Shown piece by piece: positions 3,435 through 20,207 of a stretch of DNA of 20,207 bases. Each line of letters opens with the position of its first letter. Within the stretch, counting starts at the first letter, position 1. Below the pieces are notes generated by a model that saw only the letters and a list, made by a program, of their open reading frames with translations, searched no databases and was not told the origin of the DNA. The stretch spans positions 1 through 20,207 of the IMG/VR virus record IMGVR_UViG_3300027847_000621; one strand, given 5' to 3'. The DNA comes from a virus. Position numbers and translations under genes: made by a program.

Positions 3435-3728
3435 CTATATCCATCCTAGCATTAGTTTTGTCTCTTCCGGTACCGAGTCCATTGTAAATGGGGGATCGAA
3501 AGTTGTTATCACATCTACCGTTTCTGCACCGGCATCCTTGCAAGCCCTCTCAATCATTACAACAATCTCATCTGCAAACCCGCACCATGCACTAGTTAGC
3601 GTATGAGTTACTGTAACTTTTGGAAAGTGATCTACATCTATATCGTATATTAAACCAAGATCATATACATTCACGGCGATTTCAGGATCATATACTTTTT
3701 GTAGCTGCTCAATTATTAAGTTTTTCAT
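3435..3728 (-). CDS. MIP18 (DUF59/PaaD-like) family protein, possible Fe-S assembly factor
   Basis: This 97-residue protein matches the MIP18/DUF59 fold. The N-terminal signature YDPEIAVNVYDLGLIYDI (residues 13-30) is typical, followed by a beta strand (KVTVTHTLTSAWC) with the family's conserved Cys at 49, and an acidic helix (GFADEIVVMIERA). Cellular relatives (SufT, the PaaD N-terminal domain, eukaryotic MIP18) help insert Fe-S clusters. AAGGAG lies 10 bases before the ATG. The phage's own plausible client is the Cas4-like nuclease encoded at 9762-10622, which keeps a four-cysteine Fe-S set. Family assignment is firm; the role in the phage is inferred. Confidence 0.85.
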   Translation of the reverse strand: MKNLIIEQLQKVYDPEIAVNVYDLGLIYDIDVDHFPKVTVTHTLTSAWCGFADEIVVMIERACKDAGAETVDVITTFDPPFTMDSVPEETKLMLGWI

Positions 3729-3970: not shown

Positions 3971-4046
3971 TGGTGGAGGCGATCGGGATCGAACCGACGA
4001 CCTACGGCTTGCAAAGCCGTCGCTCTCCCAACTGAGCTACGCCCCC
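3971..4046 (-). tRNA. tRNA-Ala (anticodon UGC), CCA encoded
   Basis: A complete 76-base cloverleaf reads on the - strand. The acceptor stem GGGGGCG pairs with CGCCTCC and includes a G3-U70 wobble pair, the main alanyl-tRNA synthetase identity signal. The D arm is GCTC..GAGC. The anticodon stem ACGGC/GCCGT carries the loop TTTGCAA, giving anticodon TGC. The T arm has loop TTCGATC. The discriminator base is A and CCA is encoded. It sits inside the - strand operon, between a small membrane protein gene and a hypothetical ORF, so it is likely processed from the operon transcript. It would decode GCA and other GCN codons. No intron or mismatch is seen. Confidence 0.97.
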
Positions 4047-11546: not shown

Positions 11547-13601
11547 TTAGGCTGCTTCTATGAGGTCCAGCCAGTTGTTACCGATCTTAAGTTCTAACAC
11601 AAGAGGTACATTGAAGTCAATACCCCAACGCAAGTTTATCAAATCTTTTAACGTATTATTTACTACTGATATAATTTCCTTAACCTCCTTCTCCTCATCA
11701 GGGTGAACATCAATCACGATACTGTCGTGGACAGTATTAACAATGCACGACTTGCAGAAGCGTAGCAACCTATCTATCTCTAGAAATGCAAGCGGCACAA
11801 TGTCGGCAGTAGCAAAGGATTGTACGGGATAGTTTTTAATCTGAGTAAAGTACGTTACGGTACCATTGATCTTTCTTTGCACGTTAGGGAAGGCAAACAC
11901 ACGTCCTGAAGGTGTGCTAACAGTGCCTTTGTTTAAAGCATCCCGTGCTAGCTCCTGATGCCAAGTGGCAATACCCTGGTACTTATCCCTAAAGTGTTCG
12001 TAGTACGCAGCTTCAGCTTTAGTTCTACCGTAACCTGTAGCTCCATACAGAGGAGCAAAGGTATGAGCTTTTGCATCCTGCCTAGACGTTTTCTGCCCAG
12101 CGCCAGTAATAACTGAGGCTGTGTACGCATGGACATCAAAGCCTTCTGCTACTTCCTTCATAGCAGTATCATCTTGTGCCAGGAAGGCGGCAGTGCGGAA
12201 CTCTAGCTGGGCAAAGTCAGCTTCGAGGATCTTACCTCCATCCCACCTAGACACAAACACTTTCTTAACTGGGAAAGTGCCACCGCGTGGCATGTTCTGC
12301 ATGTTAGGTTCTTTACCACTCAACCGTCCTGTGGAAGTCATGTGCTGGTTAAGCCTGACGTGCAGGAAGCCATCTTCTTTAACGTGCTTCTTAATACCAT
12401 CAACAAAGGAGTTAATGTATGTGTCTAGAGCAGATAGGCGCTGTACTTTCATTAGAAAATCTCGGACTTCTTCCTTGTCGTACTGTAGGGCTAACCTCCC
12501 AAGATACTCCAATGCACCCTTGCCTGTGACAAAGCCATGGGATGCATAGAAGCGGCTATACGGGGGGCTAATCCTTAAACCGGCAACAGCACTACCACGA
12601 ATAACAGTGTAACCGTTACCAGTGCAATCACTACATTTGTTATACTTTTTATATTGTTCACCGTTTTTCTTCCTCTTTCTAATAAGTCCTGATCCCCAGC
12701 ACGGGGCACATCTACGTAGATAAGATTTGTAAACGGGCTCTGTCTGGGTAGCTACAATCTTTTTGAACTCCTGCTCACTCATCCTAGCAAGGCCGAAGTC
12801 AGCCCACACCTTCTTATCCTTTGGCTTTCGACTGTATATAACAGCAGATAGTTGTTCCGGGCTGGCGAGATTTACAGGAACATCACCCATAAGATCTTTA
12901 ATAGCGTACTCAAGGTACGCTACAATCTCGTTACGCTCTGCTACGAATTGTTCCCTCACACTATCTAGTGCTGCCAAGTCAACTTTAAACCCTCGCCGAT
13001 ACATTTTTGTTAAGGCAATTGCCATTTCGTTTGATAGCATAAGTGTGTTTTCTAAGGTGCACATGTCGTCAGTATACATACGGTTCCGTTGCACTAGCAT
13101 GAGCTGCTGGGTTGCTCGCAGATCAGACTCTAGGTACATGGTCAATTCATCGTGGGGTATATCGCGAACAGATACTCCCTCCTTGAGATAGTTCTTTAGT
13201 GTGTCCCCTTTCTTTGTATCAAGCTCATGCCTAATAGCACAGGCGGCAAGTGATAAGGGTGCTTTCTGCCCTCGTAGCATTATATACTCAGCAACCATAG
13301 TGTCCCAAACGGCACCTTCATAGCGGAACCCCGCTTCCCATAGCCAGATCAAGTCATGGGATATGTTGTGACCTATCAAGACAGTGGTGTCGTCAAGGTA
13401 GGCTTGCAGCTTCTCACGTCCCTCCAACGTAGGGCTATGGCCGGAGTGATCAAAGGTAAAGATTACAGGAGAGGGAGTACTGCCTTCTGTGTCTACTAGA
13501 ACACCCACCATAACAAGACTGTTCTCTTTCTCGAACGGGTCAAGGTACATAACGCCATCTCTTTTGCATACCGTATTTTCTACATCAAGTACCAGTTTCA
13601 A
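11547..13601 (-). CDS. Family A DNA polymerase with 3'-5' exonuclease and DnaJ-type zinc insert
   Basis: Replicative polymerase of 684 residues from the TTG at 13601, which has GAGGAG seven bases upstream. Exonuclease: Asp6/Glu8, Asn79..Asp83 (GHNISHD) and Tyr156..Asp160 (DEDDy type). Polymerase: motif A DFAQLE (462-467), motif B Arg507, Lys511, Phe515, Tyr519-Gly520, motif C HDS (625-627). Phe515 is the equivalent of E. coli Pol I Phe762. Between the domains lie two DnaJ-type repeats, CAPCWGSG (298-305) and CSDCTGNG (323-330), joined by a basic linker, giving one likely zinc site. This insert is the trait I recall from HMO-2011-type phages. Its start lies inside the 3' end of the oxygenase gene. 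Confidence 0.95.
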   Translation of the reverse strand: MKLVLDVENTVCKRDGVMYLDPFEKENSLVMVGVLVDTEGSTPSPVIFTFDHSGHSPTLEGREKLQAYLDDTTVLIGHNISHDLIWLWEAGFRYEGAVWDTMVAEYIMLRGQKAPLSLAACAIRHELDTKKGDTLKNYLKEGVSVRDIPHDELTMYLESDLRATQQLMLVQRNRMYTDDMCTLENTLMLSNEMAIALTKMYRRGFKVDLAALDSVREQFVAERNEIVAYLEYAIKDLMGDVPVNLASPEQLSAVIYSRKPKDKKVWADFGLARMSEQEFKKIVATQTEPVYKSYLRRCAPCWGSGLIRKRKKNGEQYKKYNKCSDCTGNGYTVIRGSAVAGLRISPPYSRFYASHGFVTGKGALEYLGRLALQYDKEEVRDFLMKVQRLSALDTYINSFVDGIKKHVKEDGFLHVRLNQHMTSTGRLSGKEPNMQNMPRGGTFPVKKVFVSRWDGGKILEADFAQLEFRTAAFLAQDDTAMKEVAEGFDVHAYTASVITGAGQKTSRQDAKAHTFAPLYGATGYGRTKAEAAYYEHFRDKYQGIATWHQELARDALNKGTVSTPSGRVFAFPNVQRKINGTVTYFTQIKNYPVQSFATADIVPLAFLEIDRLLRFCKSCIVNTVHDSIVIDVHPDEEKEVKEIISVVNNTLKDLINLRWGIDFNVPLVLELKIGNNWLDLIEAA

Positions 13602-14280
13602 TGTCTTTCTCCTCAACAGTGTTAGGCTTCTCTAAGAAGTTTAAGTTTGCACTAAAGCTTCTCCTCTCGCCTTTTGTTTTAAAGGGATATACACAGTGGA
13701 ATAAATCTGAGGGGAACAAGTAGAAGTCACCCACTCTAGGCTTCACCATGAAGTTTGTCATGCTCCAGTGTGAGGGAGTACCGTGGGCAAACTGAATGTG
13801 TCCATTAGAAGGGTGATGATCCTTATAATCTTCCTCCCATTCCGCATCAATGTTATCTGGCAGCTTCAAGTATCCTACACATGATAGTTTACATCCTGGA
13901 TGGATGTGTAACGGATTGTACTCGTTCTCAAACTGACGGATGATCCACCCGGCTACTACCTCTACTCCATACGTGTTATTCTTTGCGTCTAAACCTCGTG
14001 TACCCATGGAGTTGTGCCCCTCGGCCCACTGCACATACCGTGCAACAAAGCCCTTTGTCTCGTTAAGAAACAACTTCTTTATCTCGGCATTGAAAAGCAC
14101 CTCTTGTGCAACTTTACCGACAAGGTTGCCGGAGAAGTCTGTCAGGCTAGGTAAGTCTTCCTCCACCCGCTGGTTAGTTTTCTTAATAAACGTATCCGAT
14201 AGTCTCAAGTATCCTACAGGAGGACCAAAGGGTGCGAAGAGGTGCTCGGTTTTCTGGGGTGGAATGTAAAAGGTTGACAC
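13585..14280 (-). CDS. Putative 2OG-Fe(II) oxygenase-like protein
   Basis: A 231-residue protein resembling the 2OG-FeII_Oxy_5 group. The iron ligands appear as His125-x-His127 in PLHIHPGCKLSC and His195 in SDLFHCVYPF, with Arg206/207 in GERRSFSANLNF binding 2-oxoglutarate. VKPRVGDFYLFP (179-190) is the typical core strand and turn. Family members hydroxylate proteins or small molecules, and some phage dioxygenases modify DNA bases; the substrate is not known here. The GTG start has AAGGAG seven bases upstream. The gene sits between helicase and polymerase and overlaps the polymerase start by 17 bases, so it is made together with the replisome. Confidence 0.8.
   Translation of the reverse strand: MSTFYIPPQKTEHLFAPFGPPVGYLRLSDTFIKKTNQRVEEDLPSLTDFSGNLVGKVAQEVLFNAEIKKLFLNETKGFVARYVQWAEGHNSMGTRGLDAKNNTYGVEVVAGWIIRQFENEYNPLHIHPGCKLSCVGYLKLPDNIDAEWEEDYKDHHPSNGHIQFAHGTPSHWSMTNFMVKPRVGDFYLFPSDLFHCVYPFKTKGERRSFSANLNFLEKPNTVEEKDIETGT
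13609..13614 (-). promoter_or_regulatory. Ribosome binding site deciding the TTG start of DNA polymerase
   Basis: On the - strand GAGGAG reads seven bases before TTG (13599-13601). The next TTG upstream (13616) lacks a correctly spaced SD and would overlap this site. The protein read from the inner TTG begins MKLVLDVEN, placing the first exonuclease Asp at residue 6, normal for phage polymerases. The whole initiation region lies in the last codons of the upstream oxygenase gene. Confidence 0.75.
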
Positions 14281-16517: not shown

Positions 16518-16743
16518 AGCGTGTATCTCCACTGTCATTACGCTTGCGATGGCGCATAGTTCCTGCAAGAAGGGTGTTCCACTTAGCAAAGGGAACCTTG
16601 TAGTTGGTTGATTGGTAGCCAGGGATAGGAGTGTATACAATGTATACCCACTTGCGACCATACGTAACTTCCAACTGACGCCAGCCGCAACCTATGCGGG
16701 GGAGTTCATCTTGCAGAAGTATCCACTCTTTTTCTTTGATCAT
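16510..16743 (-). CDS. Hypothetical small protein after integrase
   Basis: A 77-residue basic, aromatic protein (RQLEVTYGRKWVYIVYTPIP; VPFAKWNTLL; TMRHRKRND). ATG 16743 has GGTGAT upstream and overlaps the integrase stop as ATGA; its stop overlaps the next start by 8 bases. A beta-rich fold is likely from the alternating aromatic and charged residues. Position directly behind the integrase recalls an excisionase, and the size and basicity fit, but no helix-turn-helix is evident, so I keep it as unknown. Confidence 0.7.
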   Translation of the reverse strand: MIKEKEWILLQDELPRIGCGWRQLEVTYGRKWVYIVYTPIPGYQSTNYKVPFAKWNTLLAGTMRHRKRNDSGDTRYE

Positions 16744-17627
16744 GTATCACCATTCTTTCTAGCCTGTAATGCACTACAGGCACTCTTAAAAGTATTCTTC
16801 ATGTAAGGCATTAACGACTGAGGATTACTGTGTCCTGTCACTGCCATGATCTGGGGTAACGATACCCCTGCCTCCACCATTTCTGTAGTGGCAGTCCTCC
16901 GTAAGTCCATCATGCGGAGCTTATCAGGCAAGCCAGCGGATTGTATTATTCGCCTACCTATGTATGACAAAGACTTTAAACTGTAGGGATGGTACTCCCC
17001 ACCCTCCGGCACTACTTTCGGCACTACCCATTTCTGGAAATCAAAGTCTTCCTTCTGTTGCAATAACATAAGGGTAAGATCTTCAGATATTGGTAGATGA
17101 ACACTAGCCCCTCGCTTTGACTGCTCAATGTCTACACGTCCCTGGTCTAAGGCTATTGCATCCCAGGTAAGTAGGCGCATGTCCCCCAATCGTTGACCCC
17201 ATTCGTAAGACATCTGTACAATTAAACCTACGTTGCGATACTCAAACTTTTGGTATGCATGTTCCAAAAATGTAGTGACTTGATCCTTTGTCCACACAAC
17301 CTTACGAGGCTTAGTAGACACTCGCGTTATGGATGCGAACGGATTGCTCCTCTCCATTAACTCTTCTGAAAGTCCGTAGTTCCACAGCCGGGTAGCTGCT
17401 GTAACTATATGGTTAGCCATGTGACGGCCACGGACTAGCCATTTCTCATACGCATCCTTGGCGTGGATATTTCGTATATCCGCCAGCGGAATGTCCCCTA
17501 CATCGTCAAGCATGACGGTGATGAACCTACGGTAATCGTGTTGTGTTCCTTCCTTTGTTCGATAGAATTCTGGCGATACAAAGAATGCCTGTGCAACGTA
17601 ACGCAACGTCTTCTTTCTGTTAGCCAT
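16740..17627 (-). CDS. int: Tyrosine recombinase / integrase
   Basis: A 295-residue phage integrase that would join phage and host att sites. Catalytic residues: Arg146 (GQRLGDMRLLTW), Lys171 (SKRGAS), Arg243 in MMDLRRTATTEM, His266 (TGHSNP) and nucleophile Tyr275 (MPYMKNTF). The first residue of the usual HxxR box is Met240 instead of His, a change seen in other variants of the family. The N-terminal 100 residues (helical SAM-like domain) would bind arm or core DNA. AGGAG precedes the ATG. No excisionase or attP core is obvious next to it. The integrase points to lysogeny or to a recombination role. Confidence 0.93.
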   Translation of the reverse strand: MANRKKTLRYVAQAFFVSPEFYRTKEGTQHDYRRFITVMLDDVGDIPLADIRNIHAKDAYEKWLVRGRHMANHIVTAATRLWNYGLSEELMERSNPFASITRVSTKPRKVVWTKDQVTTFLEHAYQKFEYRNVGLIVQMSYEWGQRLGDMRLLTWDAIALDQGRVDIEQSKRGASVHLPISEDLTLMLLQQKEDFDFQKWVVPKVVPEGGEYHPYSLKSLSYIGRRIIQSAGLPDKLRMMDLRRTATTEMVEAGVSLPQIMAVTGHSNPQSLMPYMKNTFKSACSALQARKNGDT

Positions 17628-17646: not shown

Positions 17647-17910
17647 CTAGTAGTCTTCATCGCCGGAACCCCAAAGACGGTGATCACTTGCCTGTGCATT
17701 GATAAGCACCCCAGGTAAGTCTTCCTTAGGGCAAGCGTAGATGCCCTTATACACTGCATAGAAATCCTTGGGGCGGTTATAGTTTTTTGAGTGCATAATT
17801 CTAGTATGCACCCACCCGTTGTCCAGCTCCTCCACTTCTAAGTAAGTATCATGACCCACAAAGTGATACACCTTGTGGATCATCCCAGTTTCAGAGTCCT
17901 TCTTATCCAT
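17647..17910 (-). CDS. Hypothetical protein
   Basis: An 87-residue soluble protein. It reads as strand-rich (HKVYHFVGHDTYLEVEELDNG, split at the glycine turn) with aromatic and His residues, then NYNRPKDFYAVYKGIYACP and a loop-rich tail ending GSGDEDY. ATG 17910 has GGGGA upstream and overlaps the preceding gene by 8 bases; the longer reading (17964) has no SD. It is adjacent to the integrase and likely in the same operon. The family is unrecognised. Confidence 0.7.
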   Translation of the reverse strand: MDKKDSETGMIHKVYHFVGHDTYLEVEELDNGWVHTRIMHSKNYNRPKDFYAVYKGIYACPKEDLPGVLINAQASDHRLWGSGDEDY

Positions 17911-18238
17911 CGGTGTCCCCTTCCGCTTCCTCAACAGTCTGTATGTATCCGGAAGTACCTGCATCCAGAATGCAAATACTACCTCGCTTCTGCGTCATAA
18001 CCTTACCGACTGTCCATGTGCCAGACTCAGCATTTAGGAATACCAGGATCAGGTGTTCAGAGCGGGACACTCCTAAGAAGGCAGCAGTCTCCCCGTGGTT
18101 ATCCTTAAGTTGCTTAGTTGCTACGTCTATAGCCATGCAACCCTGGCGTGGAGTGGCTGAAGCTGGGGCTGCTGACGCTAGCAAACACAGTACCAGTATA
18201 GCTATTCCTACTAGTATATACTTCCAATTAGTATTCAT
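17903..18238 (-). CDS. Exported (Sec signal peptide) protein
   Basis: A 111-residue protein with a textbook signal peptide: Lys6, a hydrophobic core (ILVGIAILVLCLLASAAP) and ASA at 26-28, predicting cleavage before Thr29. The mature 83 residues are mixed alpha/beta with two cysteines (34 and 89) that could form a disulfide in the periplasm, and an acidic tail. The SD is moderate (GGGAT with a short gap). Exported phage proteins in early regions often exclude competing phages or alter the envelope, but no family is recognised. It lies in the integrase-DUF932 stretch. Confidence 0.75.
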   Translation of the reverse strand: MNTNWKYILVGIAILVLCLLASAAPASATPRQGCMAIDVATKQLKDNHGETAAFLGVSRSEHLILVFLNAESGTWTVGKVMTQKRGSICILDAGTSGYIQTVEEAEGDTDG

Positions 18239-18253
18239 ATCCCGTATCCCTTT

Positions 18254-19096
18254 TTATGCAGCTTGTGCCTGGAAGATAGGATGTTCCAGCCATTTAGCTA
18301 CTTCCAAATTCCTACTGAACTGCCTCTCAACCAGATTATCCGTTGCAGTTTTTCGGAAACCAAACCTGCTGGAGTGAGAGCCGTACTGTGTAAATGCTGA
18401 ATGAATAGCAAACACATTACTACCCCGGACACTGACCTCGTCCATGATGGACATCATCATCTCCTTTGCCCGTTTCTCTTTGAACAGATCCTTAGTTACC
18501 TGCTCAATCTGGCTATGTGTTACCTCAGTCTGTGCCAGATGCCGACAGTAGTTAACCTGCCGGATGAAGGTATCCTTGCTCTGCTCAATCTCACGAGCAA
18601 AGCTTTCTTCCGTAAAGTTCTTAGTACTCTTACGCTTAAAATGCTGGAGTTGACCAGTCCATAACCCGTTAAGGCAAAAGGTGTCCACTGCTCCGGAGAT
18701 GGAATTATTGGACGTACTGCCATCCAAACTACTCCAGTATATTACCTGAGGTACAAGCTCAGTTTGGTGACGCTTGCTCTCGACTGGGGTACTCTGACGA
18801 GGGAACGTCATCTTCTCCAGACAGAATGACCCATCACGGGAGATCTGTGTATTGATCTTAACTTCATCCATCCACTCCGGCACAATCTCTGCCACTGTGG
18901 TGCGTAGAGCATTCAGCAGTGGCATGAAGCCAGTACGCTTGGCACTGTTACTCCCAACAATGCCGATGACTTTACCAGTGTCGTCACGGGTAACGTAGTC
19001 CTTACCCTTGAGCCGGGTAGGGGAACGGGTAACGGTGAAGTTAGCGGGACCAAAGTCACCGGCATACTCATCAGCATCTAAAGTATCGAATGGCAT
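18254..19096 (-). CDS. DUF932 (phage/plasmid-like) protein
   Basis: A 280-residue protein matching the DUF932/TIGR03299 phage-plasmid family. The signature is VIYWSSLDGSTSNN followed by SGAVDTFCLNGLWTGQ (about 118-149), and a long helical C-terminal half (FTEESFAREIEQSKDTF onward) ends in RNLEVAKWLEHP. The family is widespread in phages and plasmids with unknown biochemical role; it is sometimes near recombination genes. AGGAG lies eight bases before the ATG at 19096. It is a full-length, intact member with no sign of decay. Confidence 0.88.
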   Translation of the reverse strand: MPFDTLDADEYAGDFGPANFTVTRSPTRLKGKDYVTRDDTGKVIGIVGSNSAKRTGFMPLLNALRTTVAEIVPEWMDEVKINTQISRDGSFCLEKMTFPRQSTPVESKRHQTELVPQVIYWSSLDGSTSNNSISGAVDTFCLNGLWTGQLQHFKRKSTKNFTEESFAREIEQSKDTFIRQVNYCRHLAQTEVTHSQIEQVTKDLFKEKRAKEMMMSIMDEVSVRGSNVFAIHSAFTQYGSHSSRFGFRKTATDNLVERQFSRNLEVAKWLEHPIFQAQAA

Positions 19097-19285: not shown

Positions 19286-19438
19286 TTATCTCTCGTTAAG
19301 CTTGCGGGCAAACTCCTTTGCTGCTCGCTCCGCACTCCGACGCATCTTCCACGCCATCTCTCGACGTTTCGTCACTCTTTGTGCTAGAAGTTTTTGAATC
19401 CTCGTCATACGCATGTTGGCTACATTCTTTACGGGCAT
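19286..19438 (-). CDS. Small basic helical protein overlapping another ORF
   Basis: A 50-residue ORF, very basic and likely a single amphipathic helix (MRMTRIQKLLAQRVTKRREM, then MAWKMRRSAERAAKEFARKL). It is preceded by AAGG six bases before the ATG at 19438 and ends as TAAATG at the next gene. It overlaps the ORF at 19296-19526 for 143 bases in the +1 frame. The amphipathic, Arg/Lys/Ala-rich composition looks like a genuine nucleic-acid-binding or membrane-active peptide rather than a shadow frame. See the finding on dual coding. Confidence 0.5.
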   Translation of the reverse strand: MPVKNVANMRMTRIQKLLAQRVTKRREMAWKMRRSAERAAKEFARKLNER

Positions 19439-19526
19439 AAGATCCCTTACCTTTCTTAGCAGCTACAACTTGGGGCCGGTGGCGGTTATGTTTTGCCACC
19501 GGGTTGCTCTTTGATTTAAACGGCAT
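19296..19526 (-). CDS. Hypothetical small protein, basic N-terminus and acidic Ser-rich tail
   Basis: A 76-residue ORF. GAGG seven bases before the ATG at 19526 gives it the better-supported start. The N-terminal third is basic (PFKSKSNPVAKHNRHRP, then VVAAKKGKGSYARKE), typical of small phage proteins; the rest is Ser/Asp/Glu-rich and low in complexity (SKTSSTKSDETSRDGVEDA). The second half is shared with another reading frame that looks more protein-like, so the C-terminal part may be a by-product of overprinting. It overlaps the end of the helix-turn-helix gene by 11 bases. Confidence 0.5.
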   Translation of the reverse strand: MPFKSKSNPVAKHNRHRPQVVAAKKGKGSYARKECSQHAYDEDSKTSSTKSDETSRDGVEDASECGASSKGVCPQA

Positions 19527-19917
19527 TACCTTTCCTCTTTTTATTGTATCTGTTGTGCTGGCTTGCCGTCAAGTAATTGGGCACCGCATTCTCCTTGCGC
19601 CAGAGGGAAGCCAGACTAGATACGTCGATGTTGTGAGCCACTGTGTGGTGACATAGTATCCCCTTGGCTCCAGATACACGCCAGTCGCCGGGAGTACCTC
19701 GGATAGCTTGTACGTACCCCCTTCGTACCCAACCATGGATTACCGTGTACGGCACACCATTGTACTTAGCCAATTCCCTAACCGTTGAATAATCTTTCAT
19801 GTCGTATTCTCCGTTGTTGTGAGTAGCTAACCAGGCTTTCAGCCCACCAAACAGGCCGACCAGGATCATCAGTATCCCTAAGAATAATAGTACATCAGCA
19901 ATAGGGTTGTCAACCAT
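19516..19917 (-). CDS. Membrane-anchored MerR/excisionase-like helix-turn-helix protein
   Basis: A 133-residue protein. Residues about 6-28 form a membrane segment (ADVLLFLGILMILVGLFGGL). Then comes MKDYSTVRELAKYNGVPY..VIHGWVRRGYVQAIRG..GDWRVS (about 40-82), a pattern of the MerR/HTH_17 winged helix-turn-helix used by excisionases and small regulators. The tail (NRYNKKRKG) is basic. ATG 19917 has GAGGTG six bases upstream. A second ATG at 19800 has its own GGAG (19809-19812), allowing a soluble 94-residue form. Possible role: regulator or excisionase for the integrase, or a membrane-tethered sensor. The domain order is unusual. Confidence 0.7.
   Translation of the reverse strand: MVDNPIADVLLFLGILMILVGLFGGLKAWLATHNNGEYDMKDYSTVRELAKYNGVPYTVIHGWVRRGYVQAIRGTPGDWRVSGAKGILCHHTVAHNIDVSSLASLWRKENAVPNYLTASQHNRYNKKRKGNAV
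19809..19812 (-). promoter_or_regulatory. Internal ribosome binding site before the HTH part of the membrane-HTH gene
   Basis: GGAG (within CGGAG) sits eight bases before ATG 19800, which is in frame and begins exactly at the helix-turn-helix domain (MKDYSTVREL). It would allow a second, soluble product of 94 residues from the same gene. The site may be coincidental, but its spacing and its match to the domain border are notable. Confidence 0.4.
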
Positions 19918-19927
19918 GTTCTTCACC

Positions 19928-20017
19928 TCAAACTAACAAAACGACTACGAAAGCCATAACGCAAGCTGCGATTGCTACACACAATCCCATACCAATCACT
20001 TCCCTTACAGATGGCAT
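19928..20017 (-). CDS. Tiny single-pass membrane peptide
   Basis: A 29-residue ORF (PSVREVIGMGLCVAIAACVM, then AFVVVLLV) that is nearly all membrane segment with a short charged N-terminus. It has one of the best SD sequences in the window (AAAGGAGG at 20024-20031, ATG 20017) and its stop sits just upstream of the next gene's SD. It is probably coupled to the following membrane-HTH gene. Too short for homology, but the strong SD and uniform hydrophobicity support expression. Confidence 0.6.
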   Translation of the reverse strand: MPSVREVIGMGLCVAIAACVMAFVVVLLV

Positions 20018-20030
20018 AGTTCCCCTCCTT

Positions 20031-20090
20031 TCATTGGAATAGATAGTAAAGTATTACATGTATCGCTATCACCAGTGCCACCGCTTCCAT
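20031..20090 (-). CDS. Tiny membrane peptide ORF
   Basis: A 19-residue ORF (MEAVALVIAIHVILYYLFQ), all hydrophobic after the first two residues. GGAGG lies seven bases before ATG 20090, and the start overlaps the upstream stop as TGATG. Its stop overlaps the SD of the next ORF. It may be a real micropeptide or only a coupling device; the composition is membrane-like and it is the first of three consecutive membrane-segment ORFs. Confidence 0.4.
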   Translation of the reverse strand: MEAVALVIAIHVILYYLFQ

Positions 20091-20207
20091 CACCGTTCCT
20101 CCGGCATATATGTATTCCACTCGTCATCAGTTATGCCGGTCTTAATAAATTCCCGTTGATGGGCAGGTAAGTGGGGCCAGATTGATTGTAGCCCCTCTCC
20201 TTTTTCA
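20090..20207 (-). CDS. Phage protein, C-terminal part, cut by right edge
   Basis: The frame is open from the right edge and ends at TGA 20090-20092. The last 38 residues are visible and include IWPHLPAHQREFIKTGITDD, then EWNTYMPEER. This Pro/Trp-rich LPxxxREFIxTGITxxEW pattern resembles the end of small phage proteins of unknown function. The start is beyond the window. It is the most upstream visible gene of the leftward operon. Confidence 0.6.
   Translation of the reverse strand, partial: EKGEGLQSIWPHLPAHQREFIKTGITDDEWNTYMPEER

Follow-up and report, generated by a model that had tools for sequence, protein, structure and literature searches.

A predicted membrane-anchored winged helix-turn-helix protein and two coupled micro-ORFs in a variable early-operon slot of an HMO-2011-type marine podovirus

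To our knowledge, very few systems are known in which phage proteins fix DNA to the membrane, and p16.7 and p1 of phi29 are the ones that have been studied. The fold of p16.7 is not a winged helix-turn-helix (HTH), and domains of the MerR and excisionase (Xis) type bind double-stranded DNA whereas p16.7 binds single-stranded DNA. p16.7 is an integral membrane protein that binds the terminal protein as well as single-stranded DNA and brings replication to the membrane (PMC4974454). A search of the literature for membrane-tethered HTH regulators of phages found nothing that fits the locus described here. This locus belongs to a phage of the HMO-2011 type, one of the dominant phage groups of the ocean. 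Most members of subgroups I and III of this type carry an integrase, integration of CRP-3 has been demonstrated, and some HMO-2011-type phages are temperate (PMC9038755).

The stretch of DNA that was analysed (the window) is a virus record of 20,207 bases for which direct DNA comparison gave no close match with named phages. Primase, a DnaB-like helicase and PolA are encoded on its minus strand alongside an integrase, and the gene order of this strand is that of HMO-2011 and of the roseophages CRP-1 and CRP-345. Integrase, primase, helicase, PolA and a gp08-like gene thus stand in the group order by which the HMO-2011 type is recognised, and the window is, to judge from these genes, part of a marine podovirus genome of this type. 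A second contig from the same strain (L004) was found among viral contigs; it differs from the window at five of 1,208 bases, none of them inside the three open reading frames (ORFs) discussed below, over which the two are identical at all 575 bases. L004 prolongs the window upstream, where terminase-like genes (recognised by reading of their translations) on the other strand are followed by a gap and then by the early genes in the order GP88, up71, ORF1, ORF2, ORF3, ArfA-like and on to the gp08-like gene. This gene order places the three ORFs close to where the early operon begins. The features of the region, in the order in which they are read and with duplex energies for the Shine-Dalgarno (SD) sites, are as follows.

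20090 to 20206, minus strand: 3' end of the conserved gene up71, left flank of the cargo slot; a full copy (67-71 aa) lies at L004:4613-4828
20031 to 20090, minus strand: ORF1, 19 aa, ATG at 20090, stop at 20031, nearly all one hydrophobic helix (MEAVALVIAIHVILYYLFQ); SD -9.5 kcal/mol
19928 to 20017, minus strand: ORF2, 29 aa, ATG at 20017, stop at 19928, one predicted transmembrane segment (MPSVREVIGMGLCVAIAACVMAFVVVLLV); SD -12.1 kcal/mol
19516 to 19917, minus strand: ORF3, 133 aa, ATG at 19917, stop at 19516; SD -6.9 kcal/mol
19296 to 19526, minus strand: ArfA-like ribosome-rescue gene, right flank of the slot; Pfam ArfA E 1e-5, 25.3 bits against a cut-off of 25.5
18254 to 19096, minus strand: gp08-like early protein, homologue of HMO-2011 gp08, conserved in the group and used as synteny anchor
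16740 to 17627, minus strand: HMO-2011-type tyrosine integrase, 52% identical to that of Puniceispirillum phage HMO-2011; PF00589 E 3e-19

Several other genes of the window were noted in passing. A complete tRNA-Ala (TGC) gene at 3971-4046 (minus strand) is possibly linked to the integration site. A possible auxiliary metabolic gene at 3435-3728 (minus strand) has a domain of iron-sulfur cluster assembly proteins (PF01883, E 1e-11), and the span 13585-14280 holds a gene resembling 2OG-Fe(II) oxygenases. At 17903-18238 (minus strand) a protein of 111 residues has an N-terminal hydrophobic segment resembling a signal or membrane anchor and matches PHROG 25396 (function unassigned) with E 1e-12.

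The coordinates of the three ORFs, their lengths of 19, 29 and 133 codons, their couplings and their SDs, as given in a preliminary description of this DNA, were all confirmed by re-reading the sequence. One base is common to the stop of up71 and the ATG of ORF1 (TGATG), the SD of ORF2 (AAAGGAGGGG) is placed after the stop of ORF1, the SD of ORF3 overlaps the stop of ORF2 (TGAGGTGA) and the ArfA-like gene begins before ORF3 has ended. Ranked by SD duplex energy among the 451 minus-strand ATGs, ORF2 stands third and ORF1 fourth. That each ORF has a hydrophobic segment and an SD of its own also holds, the best 17-residue hydropathy being 2.1, 3.2 and 2.8 for ORF1, ORF2 and ORF3 respectively.

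Under fixed thresholds (an ATG, at least 18 aa, an SD of -6.5 or below and a 17-residue hydropathy of at least 2.0) ORF1 to ORF3 were the sole hits within the 3.5 kb early region, and no such run appeared in 300 dinucleotide shuffles. Slightly looser thresholds applied to 3.86 Mb of related-locus strands gave 303 single hits and five adjacent pairs with no adjacent triple. A run of three such ORFs is very unlikely to arise by chance. Codon composition gives good support to both parts of ORF3 (1.1% and 3.1% of off-frame windows score as high), is marginal for ORF2 (9.5%) and gives no support to ORF1 (37%), which is the least certain of the three. It could be argued from the score of ORF1 that the ORFs are chance ones or an assembly artefact, particularly as the sole second copy, on one contig from a strain that is nearly identical, may not be independent. 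This explanation is highly improbable given the outcome of the shuffles and of the relatives' strands, the agreement of the second contig over all three ORFs and the presence of conserved flanking genes in the expected order.

ORF3 is laid out as a predicted transmembrane segment (residues ~8-31), a winged-HTH-like domain (~41-85, with matches from residue 40) and a basic tail, the last 19 residues having a net charge of +5. The flank before the hydrophobic segment has a net charge of -2 and the protein from residue 40 onwards one of +10, a pattern which by the positive-inside rule would place the HTH side in the cytoplasm. Single-sequence AlphaFold2 modelling returned a long helix (5-33), helices at 43-53 and 57-66 and strands at 69-75 and 78-83 with a low mean pLDDT of 57; when the soluble part was modelled alone the helix-helix-strand-strand order was seen again, likewise at low confidence.

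Matches of ORF3 in Pfam, PHROGs, NCBIfam and PADLOC are all weak, and those with names are mostly HTH families. In Pfam, HTH_17 (PF12728) was matched with E 0.008 (16.8 bits against a cut-off of 27) and MerR_1 with E 0.04 (14.5 bits against 21.6); TIGR01764 excise gave E 0.08 (12.6-13.3 bits against 28.8), MerD E 0.05 and the PADLOC family mad1 E 0.012, while the PDB sequence matches included RppC (6hlk) at E 1.3. ORF3 is above no curated cut-off, and taken singly none of the domain or fold matches reaches significance. Among the best tblastn rows in phages and plasmids (E ~1 or above) are several proteins annotated as HTH, aligned over the same residues. The Foldseek PDB list is headed by CarH and Pukovnik Xis with E-values that are not significant, the VIA-align list is led by MerR regulators with Z of at most 3.8, and the named viral structural matches are mostly phage HTH, MerR or excisionase proteins. 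The domain is very likely, on these concordant matches and models, a winged HTH of the MerR/excisionase type, membership of any one family being unproven. For ORF3 as a whole the best reading is that of a single-pass membrane protein with its N-terminus out and its C-terminus in, carrying a cytoplasmic MerR/excisionase-like winged HTH. The arrangement previously proposed for ORF3, a membrane segment and then a MerR/excisionase-like HTH with a second SD and ATG between them, is thus supported by the sequence, by the predicted topology and by many domain and fold matches that are weak but concordant.

Searches outside the window located ORF3 in its own strain only. Back-translated ORF3 peptides matched one contig only among the viral contigs, that of the same strain. 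tblastn gave no homologue in phage records (best E ~1) or in plasmids (best E 2), and phmmer run without filters over 1.95 Mb of related loci also gave none. Among 25 whole related records there were no ORF3 homologues and no genes over the HTH_17 cut-off. When genome contigs were scanned with the integrase alignment, a single Rhodobiaceae contig came up, which has no more than 1.3 kb upstream. A relative whose gp08-like gene is 84% identical (L013) diverges fully at the start of that gene, its contig ending 0.4 kb beyond. A Pfam search of 292 distinct upstream ORFs of relatives showed, among the matches listed, no HTH_17 or MerR at E up to 0.008 and HTH_11 or HTH_24 in single members. A membrane-tethered lysis-lysogeny switch conserved in related temperate phages was not borne out, since no homologue was found beyond the one same-strain contig.

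With profiles of up71, the ArfA-like protein and the gp08-like protein, the flanking genes were recognised, in matching order, in many related contigs. For 23 relatives it was possible to read what stands between up71 and the ArfA-like gene, and approximately seven different contents were seen, including DUF7227 proteins, a pair of 70 and 209 aa, GP88-like proteins of 244 aa and others. None of these 23 relatives with the same flanks carries any of ORF1 to ORF3 or a membrane-HTH gene in the slot; by the yardstick of the preliminary description itself this speaks against a conserved switch, though not against ORF3 being a real protein. Because no homologue was found outside its own strain and the contents of the slot differ among relatives, the three-ORF cassette is, as far as the searched data show, cargo peculiar to one strain and lodged in a slot of the early operon that varies among these phages. 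Examples of cargo between up71 and the ArfA-like gene can be seen at L070:1928-2719, L077:2470-3292 and L194:4201-4965, and the kinds of gene in the slot are DUF7227, GP88-like, glycosylase-like and unassigned. Elsewhere among the early genes of relatives there are matches to Mom, DNA methylase, Pyr_excise and cell-wall hydrolase. An unrelated soluble protein of 112 residues is encoded just after the ArfA-like gene in L070 (3004-3342) and L077 (3614-3952), the latter with a weak winged-HTH match (HTH_24, E 0.003); early DNA-binding proteins may, from such matches, be recurrent cargo.

The ArfA-like gene occupies the same position in many relatives. The gene, which has a KKGKGSYxRK motif, was seen in many HMO-2011-type relatives (L107, L142, L104, L039, L076, L077 and others); in some (L002, L070, L077) the motif is degenerate. 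A phage ArfA has already been reported as gp30 of the pelagiphage HTVC027P (PMC12753301). A very basic ORF at window positions 19286-19438 (minus strand) overlaps the ArfA-like gene in the +1 frame and extends past its end. A basic overlapping ORF of ~43-67 codons, mostly with a net charge of ~+10 to +13, was present in 29 of 43 distinct related loci with a recurrent KPKRDDWKRERK-like motif, and is apparently a conserved overlapping gene.

The distinct neighbours found directly before the ArfA-like gene number 33, the window's own among them. In three relatives (L043, L076, L127) the neighbour is a membrane protein of 54-60 aa, and no neighbour in the relatives is a homologue of the ORF3 HTH. 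Small membrane ORFs make up 24 of 350 distinct upstream ORFs of relatives, some of them directly preceding the ArfA-like gene, and none of those seen is fused to another domain. The frequency of such ORFs nearby, together with the unrelated cargo of the slot, would suit a reading in which the N-terminal segment of ORF3 belongs, together with ORF1 and ORF2, to the ordinary small membrane proteins made early for host takeover or the exclusion of other phages, with the HTH-like part of ORF3 a passenger or serving some other role. We hold this to be plausible but on balance unlikely, as many weak HTH matches concur with the predicted secondary structure and as the small membrane ORFs of relatives are unfused. 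A reading of the micro-ORFs as a lysis cassette or holin was also considered and rejected: the cell-wall hydrolase (PF07486) found nearby in CRP-345 was not seen beside the ORFs.

The preliminary description had also claimed an internal SD and ATG at the border between the membrane segment and the HTH, and these are present. Two further features bear on a second product of ORF3.

19516 to 19800, minus strand: possible soluble form of ORF3, 94 aa, ATG at 19800; SD CGGAGA, -6.6 kcal/mol
19884 to 19913, minus strand: hypothetical promoter, sigma-70-like match TTGACA-18-TATTAT (11/12), inside the membrane-segment codons and upstream of the ATG at 19800

Internal in-frame ATGs with an equally good SD make up 5% in the core genes of the window and 2% in named relatives, and the internal SD is suggestive only as a sign of a second start. 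The promoter match is the sole sigma-70-like match of at least 11 on this strand of the window, with 0.3 expected by chance. Together the SD and the promoter match, both noticed post hoc, would allow a free form to be made. Another reading is that the HTH gene starts only at 19800 and that the membrane segment is a third micro-ORF joined to it by chance loss of a stop, leaving a plain soluble excisionase-like protein. The SD at 19800 is close in strength to that at 19917, and 94 aa is a usual size for excisionase-like proteins. We regard this as improbable, since the membrane-coding part of ORF3 is an open frame with a codon score equal to that of the core genes and has an SD of its own overlapping the ORF2 stop.

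ORF3 lies 1.9 kb from the integrase, which is downstream in one gene string, and nothing else was found to tie ORF3 to lysogeny control. It might nevertheless be an excisionase or lysogeny regulator in two forms, a free one from ATG 19800 acting on the integrase sites or an early promoter and a membrane form keeping it in reserve. Such a role would agree with the weak excisionase-family matches, with the SD and ATG at the domain border, with the promoter-like site upstream of that ATG and with the temperate habit of some HMO-2011-type phages, including the integration of CRP-3. It is made distinctly unlikely by the absence of a homologue or of an HTH_17 gene over the cut-off in the 25 related records, which indicates that the gene is not kept with the integrase, by the retention of the integrase gene order in relatives without ORF3, and by the lack of a clear repeat array near the integrase, where two short pairs only were seen. 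The decision switch originally suggested for the cassette is left unsupported, as relatives are without the tiny ORFs and those bearing an integrase have no clear HTH_17 gene.

The reading that we prefer, tentatively and at a rough probability of 0.4, is that this is a real strain-specific cassette in which ORF3 holds DNA at the membrane, with ORF1 and ORF2 as coupled and possible partners and with a possible free form of ORF3. The proposed tethering role is modelled on p16.7 of phi29 as the best-studied phage parallel. ORF3, made early, would bind DNA while fixed to the inner membrane, and its target DNA would thereby be concentrated there. The DNA held would most likely be the phage genome in early replication or transcription and, less likely, a host promoter. 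ORF1 and ORF2 would be micro-membrane proteins, translationally coupled to ORF3, that may partner its helix; they may instead be independent of ORF3, since small membrane ORFs are common in the same region of relatives. A free form of 94 residues may also arise from the second SD and ATG. An extension of this reading, which we consider quite improbable, would have one gene give tethered and free winged-HTH proteins (from the starts at 19917 and 19800, possibly with the promoter within the membrane-coding segment) and the two coupled micro-membrane peptides control which form is active. If true, it would link DNA binding by an early phage regulator with the state of the membrane.

Of the systems to which the locus can be compared, the MerR regulators (CarH, NmlR, CueR) provide the best VIA-align matches of ORF3 and its top Foldseek row, although these matches are below significance; ORF3 differs from them in having no recognised dimerisation coiled coil or sensor domain and in its added membrane segment. 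The excisionases of the HTH_17/TIGR01764 kind, for example Xis of mycobacteriophage Pukovnik, share with ORF3 small size and a nearby integrase and have two helices followed by a beta hairpin, elements that are predicted at low confidence at the matching residues of ORF3, whereas ORF3 falls below all curated cut-offs, adds an N-terminal membrane segment and is missing from relatives with the same integrase. The early slots of HMO-2011, CRP-1 and CRP-345 resemble that of the window in flanking gene order and early position, but slots of HMO-2011-type phages hold DUF7227, glycosylase-like, GP88-like and other genes and not a membrane-HTH cassette. This variable slot would be a good place to hunt for anti-host and counter-defence genes. 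p16.7 of phi29 is an early phage protein with an N-terminal membrane segment and a C-terminal DNA-binding part, an arrangement that is predicted for ORF3 from its hydrophobic segment, its charge pattern and its likely DNA-binding domain, and at ~130 residues p16.7 is of similar length. No terminal-protein system is recognisable in the present phage, and neither p16.7 among the PDB sequence matches of ORF3 nor a phi29-like record among its tblastn matches was present up to E 10. If the preferred reading is true, a membrane-anchored MerR/Xis-like protein would be a second, unrelated solution to the anchoring of DNA at the membrane, and one small enough for tests in a laboratory host.
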